Notes: a model not told the origin generated them from the sequence alone. A stretch of DNA of 64,000 nt from Candidatus Melainabacteria bacterium (GCA_003963305.1 RXJR01000009.1:248150-312149), one strand, 5' to 3'; shown: positions 46,817 to 59,134, numbered from the stretch's first letter. Translations and numbers: made by a program.

Positions 46817-49099
46817 CTAGAACCCTGTTCCAAAAGTACCGGCGCCAATTCCGGCCATCCAGCGAGTTGCCAGAGAATGCTGGGCGCCTGCTAGCGGCTC
46901 GACCCAAATTGGTGCTGTCCACATGCGGTCAAGGTTCGCTGTTTTTGGATCTGTTCTGCCGACTTCGACATAATAGGCTGAACCCTGACCGACTTTGTTG
47001 GTTACCGGATCGAAGGCGACAACCTGGTTGTTGCTTAGTAGCTGACTGCCGGTCATCGTCTGTTCCTGGACGACTTCCGCTAATTTACCGTCGCCAATTT
47101 TCTTGTCTCCCCAGAGTTTCACTGAATACTGCGCGTCGGGTTCAATCTTTCCGTCTATCTTCATTTTCAAGGCCAACGAATCGACGGCGCTCTGGTCGAG
47201 GATGCTGCCCATGACGAACTTATCATTGGCGGTCAACACTCCGCTCAGTTTTTCACTGCTTGTGGTGGCGATGGTGCGGCGCTCGCGCAGGGCATCAAGA
47301 ATATCGACTTTGGTTAGCCCTCTGGCGTAGATGCCTGTAGCTCCCGGGTTGCCGACAGGGTCGCCGAAGTGGAAATCGCGCCCGAATGTAGGGCTGGCGT
47401 GCACGCCTTTGTCGAGATAGCCTGCGAAGCTAGTTGGATCGAGGTTGCCGGTTGGCACTTTGTCGACCGGGTTTGGATTGAGAGCGCCGCCTTTAATTAA
47501 TTCGATCTGTCTGACATACGGGTCAGCAAATCGGCGCAGCCACTCATCGTGGTTTTTGAAAGACTTTTGACCGTAATCTCTGCCGCGCTGTGCTGCAGGT
47601 GTGTTTGGATTTTCATCCGCCAGATAGCGGGGGTGATTCAGTTGAATGACCGGAGTGTTGCCGGTCGTATCTTTTAATTTGTCGAGGTGGTCGACCATTG
47701 CTTTGTAGTCGCCGTCGTTGTACTTGATCACGTCTGGTGCTTTGACGACAGGTTCGGGGGGTCTGCCTGTCAATCGCGACATGAAGCCGTCGAGCAAGCC
47801 AGGCTGTTGCTTTTGAGAGAGGAAGAATTGAGGCACTTCAAAGAGGTTGATGTGATTGACGCCACCAATGTGAGCGGCGGCATTCGATTCAGCTCGTGCT
47901 TCAGCAAGGTTGAAGGTTCCGCCCGGGTTGGTTTCGCCTATCGCTTCGGCACCAGCCATGCCATGGGTATGGTGTTCGCCAGCCTCTAGCCCTGCTTCTA
48001 TGCCACCGCCGCCGTGACTGTGTCCACCGCCGACTTTGCCAATGGTACCCATTTCGACGCCCACTAAGGAGACGTGTTTTTCGTTAGTAGTAGCTGCGGC
48101 ATCTGCGAATGTTTGAGAATATTCGATGGGATTTTCGGCTACGACCGGCGTTCCTGCCTGGTCTGCGGTGCGCGGGTCATCTGCTCCGACCCCACCGCGA
48201 GCGGCAGCGTGATTGTGGTCAGTGATAGTAGTGACTTGCTGACCTTCCTGTTGAGCTCGCTCGTACAGTTGTTTTGGCAAACCCATGCCATCTGAATAGC
48301 GTGAGTGTCCGTGTAGCGAACCGTAATACATTGTCAAATCGTCCGGTGCGCCAGTGAGCGACCTTTCGACACTTTCATTGGCGATGCCGTATTGCTGCAG
48401 GCGGCGACCGAGCGCAGTTTTCGGTTCTATCTTGCCGGTCAGGGATTCGGCGGTGGCCGTGGCGGTATTAGCATCGAGATTGGGATTAAGGATGCCTCGT
48501 GATTTCGCCTTTACTGCGTTGACGTCGAGAGCGATGCCTCCGCCGGGTGTTTCAGTGACTGGTGCTGATTCGCTGCGGCTGAACTTGCCTTTCATACTGT
48601 TTATCCAGGAGTCGGCGGCGATCATGCCTTCGTTCTCGCCTTTGAGAATGAATCGCTGCGACTTTTGTGCGAAATCACCGAAAACTGTGTCGCTGGTGGC
48701 GACTTTGTGGCCAAATGAGGCGCCTGCGAAGCCGCCTGCCAGGTTCAATCCCAGGTCGACAGTGCCTGCGACTGTACTTTTCGCCAGACCTTTGGCTGCT
48801 GCATTGAGACTGCCTGCTGGGCTGTTGGCTTCATCTTCTGCGGCTCTGACGCGGTTCACAGCTCCGACGACCATGGGAATTGTGAAAGCGGCGCCGATTA
48901 TCATGCCCGCTGGACCCCGCGCTGGAATGATGTAACCGAGCGCTGAACCCATCAGTGCAGAAGTGGCTAAAGTCTTCCCTGCCACGATGGCTGTATCGAC
49001 CGGGTGTTCGTATGCTTCCTTGACAAACTGAGCGCTGGCGTTGGGCAACTCCTGAGCCGCTGCGAGTGTGACATCGAGGGTTCCGATTCTGTCTGCCAT
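46817..49099 (-). CDS. PHP-domain metallohydrolase (CehA/McbA-like) with membrane-like N-terminus
   Basis: This 760-residue protein has an N-terminal Ala/Gly-rich hydrophobic region (about 30-135) with HPVDTAIVAGKTLATSA, then a PHP domain. The metal motifs are LHGHSRYSDG (His263, His265, Asp270), ITDHNH (Asp294, His295), LNHPRY (His489) and DFHFGDP (Asp575, His577). A His/Gly-rich loop at 357-385 (GGGHSHGGGG, GEHHTHG) is inserted in it. A beta-rich C-terminal domain follows from about 610. PHP proteins hydrolyse phosphoesters; the substrate is unknown. The start is ATG 49099. Confidence 0.75.
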   Translation of the reverse strand: MADRIGTLDVTLAAAQELPNASAQFVKEAYEHPVDTAIVAGKTLATSALMGSALGYIIPARGPAGMIIGAAFTIPMVVGAVNRVRAAEDEANSPAGSLNAAAKGLAKSTVAGTVDLGLNLAGGFAGASFGHKVATSDTVFGDFAQKSQRFILKGENEGMIAADSWINSMKGKFSRSESAPVTETPGGGIALDVNAVKAKSRGILNPNLDANTATATAESLTGKIEPKTALGRRLQQYGIANESVERSLTGAPDDLTMYYGSLHGHSRYSDGMGLPKQLYERAQQEGQQVTTITDHNHAAARGGVGADDPRTADQAGTPVVAENPIEYSQTFADAAATTNEKHVSLVGVEMGTIGKVGGGHSHGGGGIEAGLEAGEHHTHGMAGAEAIGETNPGGTFNLAEARAESNAAAHIGGVNHINLFEVPQFFLSQKQQPGLLDGFMSRLTGRPPEPVVKAPDVIKYNDGDYKAMVDHLDKLKDTTGNTPVIQLNHPRYLADENPNTPAAQRGRDYGQKSFKNHDEWLRRFADPYVRQIELIKGGALNPNPVDKVPTGNLDPTSFAGYLDKGVHASPTFGRDFHFGDPVGNPGATGIYARGLTKVDILDALRERRTIATTSSEKLSGVLTANDKFVMGSILDQSAVDSLALKMKIDGKIEPDAQYSVKLWGDKKIGDGKLAEVVQEQTMTGSQLLSNNQVVAFDPVTNKVGQGSAYYVEVGRTDPKTANLDRMWTAPIWVEPLAGAQHSLATRWMAGIGAGTFGTGF

Positions 49100-49232: not shown

Positions 49233-50249
49233 TTGTTCGGAAATCAAAGGAAACTCTTCGTACTTTTTGCAGTCGCTGTTGGCGTATCTTCTCTTGCACC
49301 ACAATTGGTGCGTGCTCAGGATGATTCAACTGATGATAGTGTTACTTTGTCACGCGAAAAGCCAATAGCAGCGCCGGTTCCAGAAAACCAACCTGCTACG
49401 CTGGCACCGCCAGAGGTGCCGGTTCTGGGTTCGAATCAGCCATCTTATCCGTCCGCGCCGCAGTATGAAAATGACGATTCGAACAGACCTTTTCGGTATC
49501 CTCAGTATTCACCGTATAATTCCTACACGCCTCAAGAACAGTATGGACAGCCTTACACGCGTCCAGGATATTATCCTTCGGGTTCGCCTGACTATGAGCC
49601 TACTTCTAACTTTCCGCAGTATGGCGGTTCGCAGCAAACTCCCTACTATCGCGGTGGAATCACAGTTGTACCGCAAGGGCTGGTAATTCCAATTGATCTG
49701 CGCACGGCGATTTCGACGCAGGTGGCGAAAGCCGGCGACTTCATTGAAGCGACGGTAAATCAGAACATTCCCTTGAATGGCTCAGGCTATCTGCCGGCTG
49801 GATCGGTGATCAGTGGGCAGGTCACTGAAGCCAAAGCCGGGCGCAGACTCAGTCGCTCCGGTTCGCTCAGTATCGCCTTCAACAACTTGAGACTGCCCAG
49901 CGGTGCCAGTTTTCCGATGACCGCTCATCTTGTCGGGAGCATCGGACGATACAAGGATGTTAACGGTGTCGAACGCGGTGAGGGGTGGAAGGCAAAATTA
50001 GGCCAGTTCGCTCTCAGAGGAGTGGGCGGGGCCGGACTCGGCGCGGCTCTCGGTACCGGTCTGGGAGCCATCGTCAACGGCGGCTCCGGAGCTGGAACGG
50101 GTGCCTGGGCCGGAGCTGCTTTCGGCGGCGGTCTCGGCGCTATGGATATGCTTTTGAGAAAGGGTCGCGATGTCATCATTCCATCGGGCACTGAGATGAA
50201 ATTACAGATGGATCAGCCTCTCAATTTGCCATTACCCGGTGGATCATGA
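49233..50249 (+). CDS. Secreted VirB10/TrbI-like C-terminal domain protein
   Basis: This 338-residue protein has a signal peptide (LFVLFAVAVGVSSLAPQLVRA). A Pro/Tyr/Gln-rich linker follows (residues 40-140), and then a beta domain with LPAGSVISGQVTEAKAGRRLSRSGSLSI. That segment resembles the C-terminal domain of VirB10/TrbI. A Gly-rich helix (GGAGLGAALGTGLGAIVNGG) follows, then VIIPSGTEMKLQMDQPL. No other secretion gene is nearby, so it more likely has an envelope role of its own. TTG 49233 is preceded by GGGAGA. Confidence 0.6.
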   Translation: MFGNQRKLFVLFAVAVGVSSLAPQLVRAQDDSTDDSVTLSREKPIAAPVPENQPATLAPPEVPVLGSNQPSYPSAPQYENDDSNRPFRYPQYSPYNSYTPQEQYGQPYTRPGYYPSGSPDYEPTSNFPQYGGSQQTPYYRGGITVVPQGLVIPIDLRTAISTQVAKAGDFIEATVNQNIPLNGSGYLPAGSVISGQVTEAKAGRRLSRSGSLSIAFNNLRLPSGASFPMTAHLVGSIGRYKDVNGVERGEGWKAKLGQFALRGVGGAGLGAALGTGLGAIVNGGSGAGTGAWAGAAFGGGLGAMDMLLRKGRDVIIPSGTEMKLQMDQPLNLPLPGGS

Positions 50250-50329: not shown

Positions 50330-51826
50330 ATGGCTAGAATCAGAAAAGCTGCACAGCTGCAAGCGATTGCTTATCGCGCGGTTCCCGGTGCGCAATTCCG
50401 GGCCAAGTTACGCGAATACGACTCGGGATCGCAAGGTACCCTTTATGGTCTCTTTCTGTTCCTTGGTTTGATCGGCATTGTACTGTGCAGTTTCATGAAC
50501 TTTCTCGTGCCGTATTGCTTGCCACTGTTGATTTTGTTCGGCACATTGGCTTTCTTTTGCGTGTCCAGTGATTTGATCAGCATCGGCGAACGTGGCGTTG
50601 CTTTTCCGATTGCCAGCGGGTTTGGATTGGGCGGACGGACGATCCGTCTGTGGTCGGATGTTGAGTCTGTGGAAGTGATCTCGGCGCACGGCAAACTCGA
50701 TTCGCCCATACAGAAGGGTGGCAGTGCATTTCGGCTTGTTTTCAAATCTGGCGGGCATATTGTTTTGCCCTTGCAGAATTTCACCCGTGAAAGTGTGGGT
50801 TCATTTGTCGCGGCTTTGCAGGAGTGGGCAAAAGAGGATGCTCAGGTCGATCGTCAGCTTGAACATGTACCGCGTTTGTGGGAACTCGAGAACGGCGATT
50901 TCAGCGAAACAAGAGAGCTTTCCTACACTAAGTTCTGGGAAGAGGAACTGGCGAATAACTACAGTTTTACCGCGTTTGTGCCTCTGCAAGTAGGTCAGAA
51001 ACTTCGCAATGGTTCTCTTGTTGTCGTCAAACAAATTGCAGCTGGTGGTTTTTCTGCAATCTACACCGTGCATGACGATGAGCGCAGAATGTTTGTCTTG
51101 AAAGAGTCAGTCATACCAAACACGACCGATGAAAAGACTAAAGAGAAGGCGAAAGAACATTTTAAACGTGAAGCAGAAATTCTGATCAAGTTGGATCATC
51201 CTAATATAGCCAAAGTGGTCGACCACTTTGTTGATACTGCCCGCGATTACTTGCTTCTAGAGTACATTGAAGGTCCGGACGCAAGAGATCTGGCAAGACA
51301 TAAGGGTAAGCAGCCCGTTGCAAGCGTTTTGAAGTGGGCACTTCAGATGACGGATGTTTTGCACTATTTGCATTCGCAGACCCCACCCGTGATTCATCGT
51401 GATATATCGCCGGATAATATGGTCATCAATAAAGCTGGTGATGCTGTTCTGATCGATTTCGGTGCGGCAAATGAATTTGTTGGTGAGGCGACGGGTACTC
51501 TCGTCGGCAAGCAAGCATACATGTCGCCGGAGCAGATTCGTGGAAAAGTGACACCCCAAAGTGACATCTATTCGCTTGGTGCAACGATTCATTTTTTACT
51601 GACCGGTAAAGATCCTGAACCGCTTAGTTCCTCTCATCCTTCTCAAGTAGATGCTTCCATACCTGAGGAACTGGATGGTCTTGTGAATTTATGTACGCGG
51701 CTGGAACTGAGCGAGCGAGTCAAAGATGCTGCAGATCTTCAGTCTCGTTTGGCTGCACTCTCGCTTCTGGCAAATCAGAAGATGCCTGCTGCTGCCGGTC
51801 TTGATCGGGGTCATGATGATGTCTGA
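50330..51826 (+). CDS. Membrane Ser/Thr kinase 1 with PH-like domain (intact catalytic motifs)
   Basis: This roughly 498-residue protein has two membrane helices at about 40-80 and a PH-like domain at about 85-165 (WSDVESVEVISAHGK, FRLVFKSGGHIVLPL). The kinase domain (about 220-480) is complete: a glycine loop (AAGGFSAIY), catalytic Lys258 (FVLKES), HRDISPDN at 356-363, DFG at 376-378 and SPEQ. It is the only one of the four array members with fully canonical motifs. I chose ATG 50330, preceded by GGAAGCGAG; TTG 50282 is the longer option. Its 3' end overlaps the start of kinase 2. Confidence 0.88.
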   Translation: MARIRKAAQLQAIAYRAVPGAQFRAKLREYDSGSQGTLYGLFLFLGLIGIVLCSFMNFLVPYCLPLLILFGTLAFFCVSSDLISIGERGVAFPIASGFGLGGRTIRLWSDVESVEVISAHGKLDSPIQKGGSAFRLVFKSGGHIVLPLQNFTRESVGSFVAALQEWAKEDAQVDRQLEHVPRLWELENGDFSETRELSYTKFWEEELANNYSFTAFVPLQVGQKLRNGSLVVVKQIAAGGFSAIYTVHDDERRMFVLKESVIPNTTDEKTKEKAKEHFKREAEILIKLDHPNIAKVVDHFVDTARDYLLLEYIEGPDARDLARHKGKQPVASVLKWALQMTDVLHYLHSQTPPVIHRDISPDNMVINKAGDAVLIDFGAANEFVGEATGTLVGKQAYMSPEQIRGKVTPQSDIYSLGATIHFLLTGKDPEPLSSSHPSQVDASIPEELDGLVNLCTRLELSERVKDAADLQSRLAALSLLANQKMPAAAGLDRGHDDV

Positions 51827-53675
51827 GCAGTCGACAGGGGTTGTTCATGAAGAGCCGACTGGAGTAGTTCATGATGAACCGATTCGAGTTGTTAAAGATG
51901 AGCCGACTGTAGTTCATGACGAATCGATTCTAGTTGTTCAAGATGATCCGGCTGTTGTTCATGATGAACAGATCAGAGTTGTTCCAACTGAGCAGCCCGG
52001 ACTCGTTCATGAAGAGCCCGACGACGCTGTACATGCGAAGCCGACTCAAGTTGTTCAGAAAGAGCCAGCCGTTCATGGGCGCACTGTCGTTGCCGATAAC
52101 CTCTTTGCTTACCAGCAAACTGAAGTCCTGATACAGTACGGTCATTTAGAAGAAGACTTGCAGCAGCTTTCCCTTGCGACACAGCGTCAAAAGGAACGTG
52201 TTCAGGAATTGCAGCTAGCCATGATGATTGCAATTGCTGCTCCCTTCGTCACTATTGAAAGCCTTTTTGCCGCGGGAAAAGTCCTCTGTCCCTCTTTGTT
52301 GATCAGTTTTGCCAAAGCCTGCAACGTGATGCACCCGCACACTAGCGAGTTCTATCTGGAGCAGTCTCATGGGTTTATGTATGCCATTGGCGGACCCCTG
52401 CTGATTCTCTTTATTGTTCTGTTCGCCCTTTATCGATTGCACGCACTGGGACCATGGGGACCGCTCGCTCCGACTCATATCGGGCTGCTGCCATCAGGTG
52501 TACGTCGTCACTGGAAGAGTCTGTTCCTCGGTTGGACCCCAGGATTGAGACCGTGGGATGAAGTCAAATCTGTTGAGATTCGTGAGTATGGAAAAAAGAA
52601 ACATCGTAAACGCATCACGTTGCGATACGAAAAGAGGCGACCGCTGTCTATCGAGGTGACTGCTATCCGGCGCATGCCTGAGAAGGAGGCTCTAGCCAAT
52701 GCCCTCAGATATTATTTGCCATCGCATGTTAAAGGTGAATTGAACACTCTTTTGGAAAAAACTCTCCCCAGGCAAAACCGTTATACGGAAATCTGGACGC
52801 AGGCGCTTTTGAACCGCCCACAGCGATTGCTTCTGACGGCGCTCGCTCCGCAGACTGTTCTGCATGAGGGGCGCTATACCATCAAAGAGCAGATTGGTGC
52901 AGGTGGACAGGGTACTGCATATTTAGCTTCCGCTGATGGACTGATACCTGAAGTAGTGCTGAAAGAGTATGTATTGCCAGACCACAATAACGTGCATGAC
53001 AGACGCCGGGCTCTCAAACGACTTGAAGATGAAGTGCAGATTCTCAGCCGCCTGAATCATTCTCAAATAGTCAGGCTGCATGATGTTTTCATTGAGGATC
53101 ACCGAGCTTATCTGGTTCTCGATTATATAGACGGACCGTCTTTGAAATCAGCAGTTATCAAAGATGGAAAGTTGGATGTTTTGAAGACGCTGGAACTATC
53201 TCTGCAGATGTGCTCAATGTTGAAATACTTACATTCTTTGTCACCGCCTCTGGTGCATCAAGATTTTACACCTGATAACTTGTTGCTCACCAAATCTGGT
53301 GTCCTTAAGCTGGTCGATTTTAACGTAGCGAAGGAAAGCGCGACTACGAAAACCAGTCTGGTAGTGGGTAAACAGTGTTATATGCCTCCGGAACAGTTCC
53401 GCGGTAAAACAAGTGTTCAGAGTGACATCTACGCGATGGGTGCTTCGCTCTATTTCCTCCTTGTCGGCTCGGAGCCTGAGCCTCTTACGTCTTCTCACCC
53501 GCGTTCTGTTTGTTCTGAGATCCCTGAAGAATTGGACCAGATTGTTGCTAGAGCTACTGCATTAGAACCGGAAAGCCGATACGCTTCCGCTCTGGAGTTA
53601 GAGCGCGACCTTCAGAAGGTTCAGCATGAACTTTTGTCTGCTCACAGGCAGAATTCATCCCTGCAGGAGGGCTGA
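51813..53675 (+). CDS. Membrane kinase 2 with N-terminal VVHDEP repeats (HQD/DFN motifs)
   Basis: This roughly 620-residue protein opens with eight or more copies of a 9-10 residue repeat such as GVVHEEPTGVVHDEP (residues 8-90). A coiled coil (110-135) and two membrane helices follow, with a PH-like domain (235-290). The kinase domain (353-600) keeps Lys384 (VVLKEY) and the catalytic Asp in VHQDFTPDN (482-484), but has DFN instead of DFG (502-504). It may be active with altered metal binding. The start is ATG 51813; the frame stays open upstream inside kinase 1. Its stop overlaps the next start (TGATG). Confidence 0.85.
   Translation: MMMSEQSTGVVHEEPTGVVHDEPIRVVKDEPTVVHDESILVVQDDPAVVHDEQIRVVPTEQPGLVHEEPDDAVHAKPTQVVQKEPAVHGRTVVADNLFAYQQTEVLIQYGHLEEDLQQLSLATQRQKERVQELQLAMMIAIAAPFVTIESLFAAGKVLCPSLLISFAKACNVMHPHTSEFYLEQSHGFMYAIGGPLLILFIVLFALYRLHALGPWGPLAPTHIGLLPSGVRRHWKSLFLGWTPGLRPWDEVKSVEIREYGKKKHRKRITLRYEKRRPLSIEVTAIRRMPEKEALANALRYYLPSHVKGELNTLLEKTLPRQNRYTEIWTQALLNRPQRLLLTALAPQTVLHEGRYTIKEQIGAGGQGTAYLASADGLIPEVVLKEYVLPDHNNVHDRRRALKRLEDEVQILSRLNHSQIVRLHDVFIEDHRAYLVLDYIDGPSLKSAVIKDGKLDVLKTLELSLQMCSMLKYLHSLSPPLVHQDFTPDNLLLTKSGVLKLVDFNVAKESATTKTSLVVGKQCYMPPEQFRGKTSVQSDIYAMGASLYFLLVGSEPEPLTSSHPRSVCSEIPEELDQIVARATALEPESRYASALELERDLQKVQHELLSAHRQNSSLQEG
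51837..52080 (+). repeat. Tandem repeats coding for VVHDEP-type units
   Basis: Units of 27-33 bases, with the core GTTGTTCATGATGA, repeat about eight times in kinase 2. The protein units alternate Val-Val-His/Lys/Gln with Asp/Glu-rich and Pro residues. The copies have diverged more than a recent slippage product would. Confidence 0.75.
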
Positions 53676-55144
53676 TGAAAGAAGAGGTTCTCGATCTGTC
53701 TGGAAATATCAGGAAGACTATTCACTATCCGAGCTACAGAATCAGCTCAGAGCATCCGCATCGCCTCTATCCTTTCTTTGATATTAGCATTCAAGCGTTT
53801 CATTGCATCCTTATCGTTTTTTTTCTGGAAGCCATCATGCTCGCTTCGGTGCATTTTGGCGGAACTCCTGAATTGGGAATGTTTTTAGCGGCCATAATTC
53901 CTTTCTCTGTTTTTTGTTCAGGAATTTTCTTACGTAATACCCGTCTGACTGTTTCTGAAGGTGGTATTTCGTTTCCTGTATTGATGGCTCCAGCGCTTAA
54001 CGGCAGGCTGTTTCGACCCTGGTCCGATTTGTTGTCTGTAGATTTGCACGAAACCAGAGACTCTCTCAACTATGTGAACGGCAATTCTTTGACTTTTACT
54101 TTTAAATCTGGAGGCTGCGTAAATATTGGCACCACTAGAATCCCTCGCGCCGATCTGCGTCTGTTGCAACAAAGTTTGATTGATAAAACAGATCTTTCTG
54201 CTGATCTGCCGGCATTAACAGACCTTGTTGCCCGAAACGACCTGGAAATATTCGATTCCCAGCTCTTTGTGTTTCTAAAGAAACACAGGCATGTTCTGTC
54301 TGATTCGTTTGGTGTGACGAACCATAATCTCTATGCAGCAGGCAAGCCGATTCTGAATAACGAGTTTATTGTCGAGAGAGTTTTGGCGGGTTCGGCAGGG
54401 CGCAGCGCTTATCTTGTCGCTGATGTGGCGAATGGACGGAACGTCTGCATGCGTGAATATGATATTCGCATGCTGGATGGTGATGCGCGCCTGCTCGCTG
54501 CGCAAGAATTGCAATCAACAGGCGAAATGTACAAAAATCTGCAGATTCCGTATCTGTTGAATTTGCTGGATGTGCGCCTCGAGAACGATAACTTCTATGT
54601 CTTTATGGAGCCACAATCAAAGAGCCTCAGGGAGTATCTGAAGAAGTCTGGGACCTTAGATGAGAAAGCTGTCTTGTCTCTGGCTTTGAAGTTGGCTGAG
54701 GCTGTCGACAGGCTTCAAAATTTGAATCCCCTTCTTACCATTGGCGGTATCAGACCTGATTCCATCGCATACAGCCCGGATGGTTCGACTTCAATCGGCG
54801 AGTTTGGTTTTGCCGATGATGTTTTAATGAAGTTTTCTAATCAGCTGCTTGTTGATGCACCATATGCGGCACCAGAAAGAATTTCTTCACGTCCCGGAAA
54901 TAGGAGTGATCTGTATTCAATTGGCGCCACCATGTACTTTGCTCTTACGGGCATAGATCCGATACCATTTGCTACGGCGCAGGTTCGCTCCAGTAAACCC
55001 AAAGTTTCTCAAACAACAGCTCTGCTAATTGAAGAATTGCTCAACCCCGACCCGACTCTGAGGGGAACCGTGCAAGAGTTGATAATGAAATTAGGGGGCT
55101 TTGTCTCAGTGACTGAAGCAGTCAGCGGAGGCGGGCATGAGTGA
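53675..55144 (+). CDS. Membrane pseudokinase 3 (lost catalytic residues)
   Basis: This 489-residue protein has the array layout: two membrane helices (about 40-85), a PH-like domain (90-170, FTFKSGGCVNIGTT) and a kinase fold (229-480). The catalytic residues are gone. The ATP Lys is Arg260 (VCMREYD), HRD is IGG (356-358), the Asn is Ser, and DFG is EFG (376-378). The fold markers YAAPERI and SDLYSIGATMYFALTG remain. It cannot be a normal kinase but could bind nucleotide or regulate a partner. The start overlaps the kinase 2 stop by one base. Confidence 0.83.
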   Translation: MKEEVLDLSGNIRKTIHYPSYRISSEHPHRLYPFFDISIQAFHCILIVFFLEAIMLASVHFGGTPELGMFLAAIIPFSVFCSGIFLRNTRLTVSEGGISFPVLMAPALNGRLFRPWSDLLSVDLHETRDSLNYVNGNSLTFTFKSGGCVNIGTTRIPRADLRLLQQSLIDKTDLSADLPALTDLVARNDLEIFDSQLFVFLKKHRHVLSDSFGVTNHNLYAAGKPILNNEFIVERVLAGSAGRSAYLVADVANGRNVCMREYDIRMLDGDARLLAAQELQSTGEMYKNLQIPYLLNLLDVRLENDNFYVFMEPQSKSLREYLKKSGTLDEKAVLSLALKLAEAVDRLQNLNPLLTIGGIRPDSIAYSPDGSTSIGEFGFADDVLMKFSNQLLVDAPYAAPERISSRPGNRSDLYSIGATMYFALTGIDPIPFATAQVRSSKPKVSQTTALLIEELLNPDPTLRGTVQELIMKLGGFVSVTEAVSGGGHE

Positions 55145-56864
55145 CGAATTAGTGCCACGCTCTGAGTCAGATTGCGAGCGCGTGCTGAATGAGGTCGCTA
55201 TGCCTCTGTTTGATTTACGAGACACTTCTTTGCAGGCTCTTGATCAATGCAATTCGACTGGTGGTGATCTGCAGAGTCAGTTGCTGCTTGCATATCGTGG
55301 CAGCGAAACGCCGGCGCGTGTTTTTTCGAGGTCGACTTTTGAATCAAATCAACTCGGGCTCTTCAAGTGGCTTCAAGCCTTTTCACCGATTCCTGTCGTG
55401 ATTGGTGCTATAGTCGGCTTCGAGCTACCGGCTGTTTTGATGGCATTCCATTTTGATGGTCTGTTTTTTAATACGTTGTTAGTTATCTTTGTCAGCGTGA
55501 CCATTGGTTCTTTGCTTGCGGTGTTACTCTTCAGCGTTTACATGAATCGACGTGGACGCACCACTGGCGAGCAGGGCGTGAAAGCTTCATTCGCCAGTGT
55601 CTTTGAGCCAGATCATATCGCTATCTCTCCACAGGGACTTAATTTGCAGTGGTCATCCAAGTGTTTTTCGCACATGGGTCTTGTATTGCCCTGGAAGCGA
55701 ATCGCTCTCGCTTATGTTGAGGAGCATGTGGATGCGGAAACAAATGAGTCATATGAAATTCTCTGTATTCGTGACAATATCGGCAAGGCTTTGCGACTGG
55801 ATTGCCGCGCATTTGCCAGCAGCGTACTGGTGAAGGCGCTGCAAAAGAGAGCACCGTGGGCGGTCAAGGCACCTCCAATGGTGCTGGCGTTGCAACCGGT
55901 GCAGTTGTTCAGGTGGCAATACTTGTTGCGCTGGTCTTATGACCTGTTCAGAACTTCATCGTCGCAAACAATGCTTGAGATCGGTGTCGGTTCTCTGCTT
56001 AAAAAGGATAAGTATAAGATTCTTGAAACAATTGACCTGCAACGGTTTGGAGTAGAGCACATCGCAGAAGTTTTGACGGGAAGTGGCGATAGGACATCGA
56101 CTGCACGATCGTACAAAGGGCTGAACTGCTATGACCAGAGTGAAAGTTCATGTTCTACTCAGGTGAAGGTACAGCAGTTCGTGCTGCCGCGTCAGCAGTC
56201 TGTAGTTGAATGGTATTGGATGTTGAACCATTTCGAAATGGATGTGCGTCGCCTCAGTGGCGTTAATAGCAATAACATAACGCGATGGTTAGATGTGTTT
56301 ATCGAAAATGGTTCGGCATTCGTCGTCACTGAATACGATGCTTCAAAAACGTTGCGTCAGATTGTTCAGGAGTCCGGTCCGTTATCTGAAGCGCGAGTGA
56401 GAGAAATTGCACTAGAAATGACAGAAGTTCTATTGCATCTGCATCAACTAGACCCGCCGTACGTGCATGGATCTTTCACGCCCGATGCCCTGGTACTTGC
56501 CGGAGAAGGATTTGTAAAACTGAACCAGTTTGCACTTGGGCGACATCTTGTGCCATCTAAAATGTTCTCCTCGTACTGTGATCGTCGCTACGCTTCTATG
56601 GAATTATTGCGCGATCGTCCAAGCGTGCAGTCAGACATATACTCGTTCGGATGTACACTCTATTATTTGCTGACCGGCGATGATCCAGAGCCTTTTCAGC
56701 ACTCCAATCCGAAACTGAAACGATCTGATATTTCGGACCGTTTTAACCAGATCGTCATGAAGGCAACAGAAACGTCTGCTGGTCGTCGTTTCGATTCAGC
56801 ATCGGAGATCAAGGATGCCATTCTCGAACTGGCAAACTCTGAAACAAGTTTGGTTTTGCTCTAA
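55137..56864 (+). CDS. Membrane pseudokinase 4 (lost catalytic residues)
   Basis: This 575-residue protein repeats the array plan: membrane helices at about 85-140, a PH-like domain at 155-245, and a kinase fold at 290-570. The substitutions are: ATP Lys to Gln346 (VQQFVLP), HRD to HGS (444-446, VHGSFTPDA, where Asn also becomes Ala) and DFG to NQF (463-465). The late fold features SVQSDIYSFGCTLYYLLTG are well kept. It is probably a non-catalytic scaffold. The ATG overlaps the end of pseudokinase 3 by eight bases with GGAGG upstream, so translation is coupled. Confidence 0.83.
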   Translation: MSDELVPRSESDCERVLNEVAMPLFDLRDTSLQALDQCNSTGGDLQSQLLLAYRGSETPARVFSRSTFESNQLGLFKWLQAFSPIPVVIGAIVGFELPAVLMAFHFDGLFFNTLLVIFVSVTIGSLLAVLLFSVYMNRRGRTTGEQGVKASFASVFEPDHIAISPQGLNLQWSSKCFSHMGLVLPWKRIALAYVEEHVDAETNESYEILCIRDNIGKALRLDCRAFASSVLVKALQKRAPWAVKAPPMVLALQPVQLFRWQYLLRWSYDLFRTSSSQTMLEIGVGSLLKKDKYKILETIDLQRFGVEHIAEVLTGSGDRTSTARSYKGLNCYDQSESSCSTQVKVQQFVLPRQQSVVEWYWMLNHFEMDVRRLSGVNSNNITRWLDVFIENGSAFVVTEYDASKTLRQIVQESGPLSEARVREIALEMTEVLLHLHQLDPPYVHGSFTPDALVLAGEGFVKLNQFALGRHLVPSKMFSSYCDRRYASMELLRDRPSVQSDIYSFGCTLYYLLTGDDPEPFQHSNPKLKRSDISDRFNQIVMKATETSAGRRFDSASEIKDAILELANSETSLVLL

Positions 56865-56866
56865 AT

Positions 56867-58072
56867 CTAACCGCGTATCGCTTTGGCTCGTCCGCGCATC
56901 TTTGCTGCTTCGGACTTATGATTAGTCTTTTCCAGAACATCAGCATAGCTATCTAAAATTGGCGACAGCGAAGCATGTTGTGGTCCATTTAGTTTCTCGG
57001 AAACTTTCACTGCATCGCTTAATAGAGGTGCTGCTTCGGCATATCTGCCTTGCTTGGCGAGTAAAGAGCTGAGGGCCAACTGGCAGCTCAAAAGATAGCC
57101 GCTGTTTTTTCCGTATGCCTTTTCGAATACTTCCAGTCCGTGATGATAGAGCGCTTCTGCCTCTTGCGCATTGCCCATTTTGATCAGGCATTGGGCCAGG
57201 TTGTCTGTGCGAGTGAGAGTTTCTGGTTTTTGCTCCCCTAAGACTTTCCTTGATATTTCCAGAGCGCGTCGGTAGAGAGGTTCAGCCTGAGCCGGTTTTC
57301 CTTCTTGAAGATAAAGTTTGGCAAGGTTTTCGCAGCTTGATGCAATAGCGATATGTGAAGGCGAAAGAATCTGTTCGCGTATTTGCAATGAGCGTTTGTA
57401 GAACTGCTCACCATAAGAAAGTTTGCCTGCTCCGGCGTAAGAGCCGCCCAATCCATCGAGCAAAGTTGCGAGCTCCAGATCTCCTTCTGAACCTCGCTTT
57501 TCGGTCATCTCCTGGGCTTGTTTCACAAGTATCTCGGCTGATTCCAGTTCTCGGTGAGTTTGATAGAACGCCGACAATTTGGCAAAACTTGATGTAACGG
57601 CGCTGCGATCTTTCATCATTTTGTCTGCGTAGGCGAGAATTTTATTGCTCAGCGCATCAGCTTTGGCTTGATTGCCCGCTTTCAAATAGAAGTGGCACAT
57701 CTTTCCAACACTGGCGATAACTTCTGGATTGTCTGCACCCATCGCCTTTTGCTTGATAGCAATTGCCCGTTCAAACAAAGGCTCTGCTTTCGCCGATTGT
57801 CCTCGAAAGTTGTACAAAACGCCGAGATTGGTCAAACTCGATGCAAGACGCAAATCTTTGTCACCGAAGCCCTCGGCTTCCTTCAAAGCTTGTTTAAACA
57901 AACGTTCGGCTTGTCCCCAGCTGGCCTGGTCGTAAGCTTTAGCCCCTTCCGTACTGTACTTGTTCCATTCTTCTTCTCCTGCCAATGATGCTTGCGCTGT
58001 GAGCGCACAAAGCACAGCGGTAAGTGAGGTGGCGGCAAATGTAGATCGCATATACAAGAATGGCTTTGTCAC
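56867..58072 (-). CDS. Secreted kinesin-light-chain-type TPR protein
   Basis: This protein of about 401 residues has a signal peptide (STFAATSLTAVLCALTAQA). Regular TPR units of the 42-residue kinesin-light-chain type follow: AEPLFERAIAIKQKAMGADNPEV, GEQFYKRSLQIREQIL, AEPLYRRALEISRKVLGE and AEALYHHGLEVFEKAYGK. I chose GTG 58072 because AGGAG lies eight bases before it; the ATG at 58120 has no such site. The gene is convergent with the kinase array, only two bases apart. It is probably a binding scaffold in the envelope or periplasm. Confidence 0.78.
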   Translation of the reverse strand: MTKPFLYMRSTFAATSLTAVLCALTAQASLAGEEEWNKYSTEGAKAYDQASWGQAERLFKQALKEAEGFGDKDLRLASSLTNLGVLYNFRGQSAKAEPLFERAIAIKQKAMGADNPEVIASVGKMCHFYLKAGNQAKADALSNKILAYADKMMKDRSAVTSSFAKLSAFYQTHRELESAEILVKQAQEMTEKRGSEGDLELATLLDGLGGSYAGAGKLSYGEQFYKRSLQIREQILSPSHIAIASSCENLAKLYLQEGKPAQAEPLYRRALEISRKVLGEQKPETLTRTDNLAQCLIKMGNAQEAEALYHHGLEVFEKAYGKNSGYLLSCQLALSSLLAKQGRYAEAAPLLSDAVKVSEKLNGPQHASLSPILDSYADVLEKTNHKSEAAKMRGRAKAIRG

Positions 58073-58207
58073 GGCGTTTGCTCCTGTGCTAATTCTAGCG
58101 CGTTCTGCATGACATCGCATTATGAGTTAATTCATCAAACAAAATTTGATTATCTAAATTGCATATAAAGGTGCATCGAAAGCCAATACAACAGGCTTCT
58201 GCAACTA

Positions 58208-59134
58208 TTAAATTTGTCCGGGTTCTTTCAGCCCCGCTCGTATTGTTTCTTCGTTGAACTCTTTGTGTGGCACGAGATCAGAGGGAAGCATCTCTGAATC
58301 GGCAAGAGGTTGACTGATTCCCTCAGACAGCATTCTGATCTGGGCAAATGCGGTGAGCGGATTGCGCATAGATTTTTCCGATGCTGCAGCGACCACATAG
58401 TGAGCTAGTGCCGGCACCGGAAGAATCAGGACAGGCTTTTTCATTACTTTCGCTACGCGTTTGACCGCTTTCGATAGCGTGATTTCCTCTGGTCCTACTA
58501 CTGCGCAAGTTTGTTTAGAGAGTCTTCCATCTGTTAATGAGGCAATAATGATCCGCACCATGTCTTCGACTGCGATCGGGCTCATCTTTTTTTCCAACAA
58601 TCCGACAGATGGAAACACCGCGACACCCGGCACTATGTCGAGGGTCCTTTTGATGCTGGTCAGCATGCTGTCGCCACTGCCGTAAATAATTCCAGGTTTG
58701 AGTATTGTGTAGTCAAGACCACTATTGCGAATTAGTTCTTCGGCTTCCCACTTTGATTTGTAATAAGCCGAAAACGCTCGAGGCCTTGCTCTTAAGTAAC
58801 TGACATAGAGGATCTTTTTGACTCCGGCTCGCAGAGCCGCGTTGATAACGTGTTTAGTCGCCTCCACGTGAATGCGATGGAAATCGCCGCTTTGAGATTC
58901 TCGATTGATGCCAACCAGGTGGGCGACCGCATCGCATCCCTGGAATGCCGCGTAGAGTTTTTTGTCATCGGTGTACTGGATGGGCGTAAACGCCGCGTTC
59001 GGTGTTTTGCGGATCTCCGGGTCGCGATTGTTGATGCCGCGTGCCAGTACTTTCGCGTACTGCCCATTGGCAACCAGGGTTCGCGCCAGGTGTGCCCCAA
59101 GGAAGCCTGTTCCGCCTGTTATTGCAACGATCAT
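58208..59134 (-). CDS. Atypical SDR-family NAD(P)-binding protein (NDUFA9-like)
   Basis: This 308-residue protein has the extended/atypical SDR fold. The nucleotide loop is TGGTGFLGAHLARTL. VAHLVGINRESQ follows, and the Tyr-Lys pair is in SAYYKSKWEAEELIRNS, with DYTILKPGIIYGSGD next. It resembles the NDUFA9 side of the family, whose members accompany complex I or act on lipid-linked substrates; the reaction is not known. AGGTG precedes the ATG. It is divergent from the second M16 protease. Confidence 0.82.
   Translation of the reverse strand: MIVAITGGTGFLGAHLARTLVANGQYAKVLARGINNRDPEIRKTPNAAFTPIQYTDDKKLYAAFQGCDAVAHLVGINRESQSGDFHRIHVEATKHVINAALRAGVKKILYVSYLRARPRAFSAYYKSKWEAEELIRNSGLDYTILKPGIIYGSGDSMLTSIKRTLDIVPGVAVFPSVGLLEKKMSPIAVEDMVRIIIASLTDGRLSKQTCAVVGPEEITLSKAVKRVAKVMKKPVLILPVPALAHYVVAAASEKSMRNPLTAFAQIRMLSEGISQPLADSEMLPSDLVPHKEFNEETIRAGLKEPGQI

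Follow-up and report, generated by a model that had tools for sequence, protein, structure and literature searches.

A membrane kinase pair encoded together with a maintained pair of predicted pseudokinases in a bacterium related to the Cyanobacteria

The window, by which we mean the whole 64,000-nucleotide stretch of DNA analyzed here, carries four consecutive plus-strand genes, K1 to K4, whose products share a plan already recognized in a preliminary description of the sequence: each combines two predicted N-terminal membrane segments with a PH-like domain and a kinase domain. The Pfam Pkinase profile (PF00069) matches all four above its cut-off of 31.7 bits, with scores of 127, 120, 57 and 72 bits and E-values of 8.9e-37, 2.1e-34, 2.3e-15 and 6.3e-20 for K1 to K4, respectively, and apart from kinase-superfamily models no other Pfam domain is found above cut-off in any of them. 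K1 (50330..51826, 498 residues) is a type-A membrane kinase in the classification given below, with its PH-like domain at 50600..50839 (residues 91-170, from domain profile A5 and boundaries) and its kinase domain at 50990..51769 (residues 221-480). K2 (51819..53675), a type-B membrane kinase of 618 residues when read from the ATG at 51819, has the corresponding domains at 52464..52718 (residues 216-300, counted from 51819) and 52854..53618 (residues 346-600). K3 (53675..55144, 489 residues) encodes a pseudokinase that we designate psi-A, with a PH-like domain at 53942..54187 (residues 90-171, modeled as strands and then a helix over residues 158-171) and a pseudokinase domain at 54353..55102 (residues 227-476). 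K4 (55137..56864, 575 residues) encodes the psi-B pseudokinase, in which a modeled PH-like domain at 55602..55856 (residues 156-240) is followed by the pseudokinase domain at 56001..56852 (residues 289-572).

Overlaps of 8 nucleotides between K1 and K2, 1 nucleotide between K2 and K3 and 8 nucleotides between K3 and K4 run through the array. The preliminary description had pointed to the overlaps among the last three genes, with which the coordinates agree; since K1 and K2 also overlap when K2 starts at ATG 51819, all four genes are coupled. This K2 start is conserved, an alternative upstream ORF start lying at 51726, and the K1 start at ATG 50330 is kept in L031 and L032. The overlaps recur in two further species, that between K2 and K3 measuring 4 nucleotides in both of them. 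Promoter and terminator scans gave nothing better than shuffled sequence. Outside the array, the left flank is a conserved plus-strand gene for a secreted protein with a TrbI-like stretch (49233..50249), and the right flank is a convergent, minus-strand gene for a TPR protein (56867..58120). Further out, the array lies between a gene for a PHP-like protein (46817-49099) and an NAD-epimerase gene (58208-59134) in each of the three species of the genus, and neither gene was detected at the matching sites of other genera.

With regard to catalysis, K1 is complete, retaining the lysine, glutamate, HRD, asparagine and DFG elements, and K2 is likewise complete, with HQD and DFN. In K3, the lysine is replaced by R, the alphaC glutamate by T, HRD by IGG, the asparagine by S and DFG by EFG; in K4, the Gly loop is lost, and the lysine is replaced by Q, HRD by HGS, the asparagine by A and DFG by NQF. 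These motif letters, and the series K, K, R, Q at the ATP lysine, are as first reported. The VAIK lysine, the HRD aspartate and the DFG aspartate are kept in K1 and K2 of all three species and are all lost in K3 and K4 of the same species. The loss is complete in each species although the exact letters vary: the replacement of the lysine is R, T and T in K3 and Q, Q and R in K4. The six dead proteins have likewise all lost an activation-loop Gly-Lys that type-A and type-B proteins retain almost without exception. Structure models of K3 and K4 both keep the kinase fold, which aligns best with the Stk1/PknB and PknA structures. We call these two proteins pseudokinases on three grounds, namely the modeled kinase fold, the motif loss and the selection described below.

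The N-domain in the K3 and K4 models displays a PH-like strand order plus a C-terminal helix. Its Pfam matches are weak (bPH_7 0.0042, bPH_6 0.034, GRAM 0.098 and YcxB 0.14); a PDB sequence search with this domain returned chance matches only, and the structure searches were filled by kinase-domain matches, with no solved structure among them confirming the PH-like fold. Inside the degenerate Gly loop of K3, an arginine (R243) is invariant, at what we take to be the site of the relocated catalytic lysine of the WNK kinases. The last 12 residues of K4 (56826-56861) are nearly invariant in the three species, with a single S-to-N change, the C-terminus ending in ELANSETSLVLL or ELANSETNLVLL; they may form a binding or localization tail.

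Proteins of the same plan in related genomes split into two types, type A resembling K1 and type B resembling K2, whose genes are almost always neighbors. We collected about 120 pair loci from one bacterial family and its sister family, and built N-domain and kinase-domain HMMs for the two types without the array locus, obtaining a clean separation. The 89 A-B pairs that were counted include 65 in the order A-B and 24 in the order B-A, with the two genes overlapping or spaced by at most 30 nucleotides in 79 of them. The distance matrices of the A and B proteins are correlated (r of 0.70, against a highest value of 0.29 in 2000 permutations), which suggests that each pair is multiplied as a unit; adjacent genes inherited in linkage could by themselves, without contact between their products, generate such a correlation. 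The type-A N-domain was found in each of the eight genomes searched in the family and its sister family; a further 291 genomes sampled from the phylum yielded no copy of it. Such pairs reach about a dozen per genome, and the source genome has eleven ordinary ones in addition to the array.

A census of 135 type-A and 129 type-B kinase domains (132 and 126, respectively, outside the dead pair) revealed a consistent division of motifs, with live type A being HRD/DFG and live type B HRD/DFx. In the 126 type-B domains outside the dead pair, the third residue of the latter motif is N in 96, S in 11, D in 9 and G in 2, and the lysine, HRD aspartate, asparagine and DFG aspartate are complete in every one. 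Similarly, all 132 type-A domains outside the dead pair keep the lysine, and the other three residues are present as well except in one with EFG in a visibly broken array (L057) and one cut by a contig end (L144). Double pairs with four complete kinases are also seen, ordered A-B-A-B in L054 and B-A-B-A in L058 and L188. A YTxxW linker motif was considered as a mark of live kinases and set aside, the strict pattern being present in about half of type A and three quarters of type B.

When classified by these HMMs, the N-domains of K1 and K3 are of type A and those of K2 and K4 of type B, the K3 N-domain scoring 67-72 bits with type A versus 15-22 with type B. K4 is type B by both its N-domain and its kinase domain; the K3 kinase domain by itself is too diverged for assignment. 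The preliminary description had perceived a stepwise loss of catalytic motifs along the operon. This does not hold, for the DFN of K2 is the norm in its type and K2 is complete; because K2 is thus a standard type-B kinase, the array has two states, its first pair being live and its second dead. Related genomes bear out the conserved gene order, in all three genomes of the genus, but not a motif gradient.

The source genome, of 7.48 Mb in 44 contigs, has 115 Pkinase matches, which places the array in a kinase-rich lineage. Its nearest named relatives, both metagenome-assembled, are Cyanobacteria bacterium SZAS-4 and Candidatus Melainabacteria palsa_1080, and we infer that it belongs to the non-photosynthetic Obscuribacterales. 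The four-gene block is present in all three genomes of the genus, in the same order and with matching overlaps, and in none of 47 other genomes of the family, where we detected neither a K3 orthologue (best profile score 167 versus at least 903 bits) nor a K4 orthologue (189 versus at least 1162 bits). In L071 and L072, which come from two other genera, the gene with the TrbI-like stretch is directly followed by the TPR gene at a kinase-free site; hence, most simply, the whole block was gained before the three species split. In a kinase-domain tree, K3 and K4 do not lie beside K1 and K2 and occupy separate long stems of 2.9 and 2.2 changes per column. A local duplication of K1-K2 as the source of K3-K4 is left unsupported by this tree, given these very long stems, and a derivation of K4 from K2 via a shared pre-membrane helix was unsupported as well (hhalign probability 0.6%).

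The K3 and K4 frames are full-length and free of stop codons in the three species. Since their synonymous sites are saturated (pS of about 0.8, with pN of 0.19-0.37), we relied on expectations for stop codons and identity instead of dN/dS: neutral evolution at the same divergence would have left 21 and 25 stops and an identity of 12-15%, whereas the observed amino-acid identity between species is 47-52% for K3 and 63-70% for K4. Judged from these sequences, K3 and K4 are under purifying selection, in keeping with the earlier proposal that the last two genes encode maintained pseudokinases.

To see where this constraint lies, one may compare the regions of each protein. In K1 and K2, the PH-like and kinase domains are equally conserved. 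In the dead pair, across three genomes of one genus and with region boundaries set by hand from the models, so that the p values are indicative, the PH-like domain of K4 equals that of K2 in conservation (78 versus 76% invariant, p = 1), whereas the K4 linker (48 versus 89%, p = 2e-5) and N-lobe (55 versus 88%, p = 3e-7) are relaxed; within K4 the PH-like domain, its most conserved region, exceeds the kinase domain (p = 0.002), and within K3 the same but weaker trend is seen (54 versus 42%, p = 0.07), the K3 PH-like domain being itself relaxed relative to that of K1 (p = 0.0017). In addition, the evolutionary rate of K3 is two to three times that of K1, and the function of K3 is for both of these reasons less certain. 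As far as the alignments tell, this comparison shows that constraint has moved from the linker and kinase domain to the membrane-proximal PH-like domain, significantly in psi-B and in the same direction in psi-A.

The relaxation of the kinase domains and linkers of K3 and K4 relative to K1 and K2, together with that of the K3 PH-like domain, might be taken to mean that the two genes are a decaying duplicate pair that remains open by chance, and genuine decay of a second pair does occur in this family. In L057:6908-9691 (genome G006), the B kinase domain of the second pair is deleted and its A gene is frameshifted and carries EFG, while in a relative from the same genus (L188:5752-9367, genome G063) the second pair is intact. 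L057 shows what decay looks like, and K3 and K4 do not resemble it: three species preserve their full-length frames, their order and their overlaps despite saturated synonymous divergence, neither the expected stops nor the expected fall in identity has materialized, and the K4 PH-like domain is conserved as well as that of K2. Decay is therefore very improbable in our judgment. Of the two signs in the pseudokinases that the preliminary description had named as telling against a complex, frameshifts are absent; relaxed selection is seen in the kinase domains and linkers, which nevertheless do not evolve neutrally.

Other readings accept that K3 and K4 are maintained and differ in what they are maintained for. 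They could form a membrane scaffold or sensor of their own, merely co-transcribed with K1 and K2, and their far divergence from the latter, with loss of the linker and activation-loop signatures, would agree with this, as would the precedent of the EssB/YukC pseudokinases, which are scaffolds without a kinase partner (PMC12599244). We regard such independence as unlikely but worth serious consideration, for each of the three species conserves the overlaps with K1 and K2, and wherever an orthologue of K3 or K4 was detected, K1 and K2 were present too. Alternatively, K3 and K4 might be substrates of K1 and K2 that recruit a phospho-binding partner, in the manner of MviN with PknB and FhaA in Mycobacterium (PMC12599244); co-translation with two complete kinases and the near-invariant K4 C-terminus are compatible with this role. 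However, K3 is devoid of a conserved Ser/Thr tail, the most constrained of the K4 regions compared is the PH-like domain and not the tail, and no FHA gene is found among the immediate neighbors of the array, making a substrate role quite improbable. Finally, SelO and SidJ provide precedents for kinase folds with changed chemistry (PMC12599244), and K3 or K4 might by analogy catalyze AMPylation or glutamylation, or use a relocated lysine or arginine, for which the invariant Arg243 of K3 would be the candidate. With the HRD aspartate and catalytic asparagine lost from both proteins in all species, and with K4 also lacking the DFG motif and the Gly loop, an altered enzymatic activity seems extremely improbable.

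Taken together, these observations lead us to a reading that we hold at an even chance, in which the dead pair has been maintained as a partner of the active pair that works without catalysis, mainly via the membrane-proximal PH-like domains, and the array is an obligate A plus B module to which psi-A and psi-B have been added. Its evolutionary part, comprising the pairing, motif loss, maintenance, synteny and constraint shift, is well supported. Mechanistically, A and B would form a heterodimer in the membrane. The dead proteins psi-A and psi-B, probably products of a pair duplication, would enter this assembly by way of transmembrane and PH-like contacts and there set its activity or choice of partner without phosphate transfer. 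The hetero-oligomer envisaged in the preliminary description, with inactive members controlling active ones, would agree both with the obligate pairing of A and B and with the way constraint has moved to the PH-like domain. Eukaryotic kinase/pseudokinase pairs include JAK JH1-JH2, HER3-EGFR and STRAD-LKB1. In these, a catalytic kinase is regulated by a related dead kinase, which is the logic proposed here; the analogy is drawn for the logic only, and not for the descent of the arrangement. By this analogy, it is conceivable, although we lean somewhat against it, that the array specifies a four-kinase membrane assembly in which an active heterodimer is allosterically set by its own dead copy, chiefly via the PH-like domains.

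Among known bacterial systems, PknA and PknB of the Actinobacteria are adjacent membrane Ser/Thr kinases, and resemble K1 and K2 in that neighboring genes encode two Hanks-type membrane kinases, both complete. They differ in that the array kinases are preceded by two N-terminal membrane segments and a PH-like domain, that type B is without the DFG glycine, and that in the A/B system the pairs have multiplied and dead copies have been added. We found no PASTA domains in K1 to K4: the PknB_PASTA model (NF033483) scores 142, 172, 37 and 66 bits, respectively, versus a cut-off of 450, and its matches cover the kinase part only. In MviN (ActPs3), a membrane pseudokinase tied to an active kinase, each of the three catalytic motifs is degraded (PMC12599244), and K3 and K4 are comparable in being membrane pseudokinases devoid of all three motifs beside active kinases. 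Unlike them, MviN does not duplicate a paralogous pair to which its own kinase belongs; moreover, ActPs3 members carry a deletion in the activation loop and, in many cases, a TM region at the C-terminus. Neither is seen in K3 and K4, whose activation-loop stretch matches that of K1 in length and whose TM segments are N-terminal. EssB/YukC of type VIIb secretion is another membrane pseudokinase without the three motifs, serving as a scaffold and dimerizer (PMC12599244). It belongs to a different family, with no secretion genes among the immediate neighbors of the array, and the EssB model (TIGR03926) gives 10.9 bits with K1, versus a cut-off of 229.75, and no match with K2 to K4. The CP1 (pseudo)kinases of Cyanobacteria and Proteobacteria have no TM region and are linked to COG3899, whereas K1 to K4 have TM segments. 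Hence, none of PknA/PknB, MviN and EssB/YukC has this architecture or a kinase pair accompanied by a dead copy of itself, and ActPs3 and CP1, judged by their descriptions, differ from the array in membrane topology or linked domains. A defense function (MAD6, PD-T4-6) was also considered, MAD6 reaching 132 bits versus a cut-off of 460 and the PADLOC matches lying on the kinase domain; it was rejected because the matches hit the generic kinase core and fall below the curated cut-offs.

A 2025 review counts seven of 42 bacterial kinase families as composed of or rich in pseudokinases, and the bacterial pseudokinases are largely unexplored (PMC12599244). Few of them have an obvious candidate kinase partner; here, one is encoded in the same overlapping gene set and belongs to the same two types of paralogue. 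If our reading is true, bacterial kinases might be controlled by their own dead copies, a question made directly testable by the co-encoded partner, the three species, the live and decaying double pairs as controls and a single constrained domain. We found no published description of the A/B pair family in the open-licence literature, and within that scope the two-kinase (DFG plus DFN) system underlying the array appears to be previously undescribed; the A and B types may lie inside one of the 42 described kinase families. With its fixed DFG/DFN split between partners, the A/B family would represent a large signaling system in uncultured relatives of the Cyanobacteria.

Some loci vary the pair theme. 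At L037:6800-8302 and L043:6493-8235, A and B are separated by a gene whose TPR product has an apparent membrane segment at its N-terminus, and gaps of similar size lie between A and B in L140, L145 and L146; the two TPR proteins show no kinship by BLAST beyond their TPR class. Certain type-A proteins, at L039:3669-6098, L122:3419-5989 and L151:5457-7964, possess a long N-terminal extension (>800 residues), and that of L039 further displays an abnormal Gly loop, LASKPLCAVY, with its remaining catalytic residues intact.
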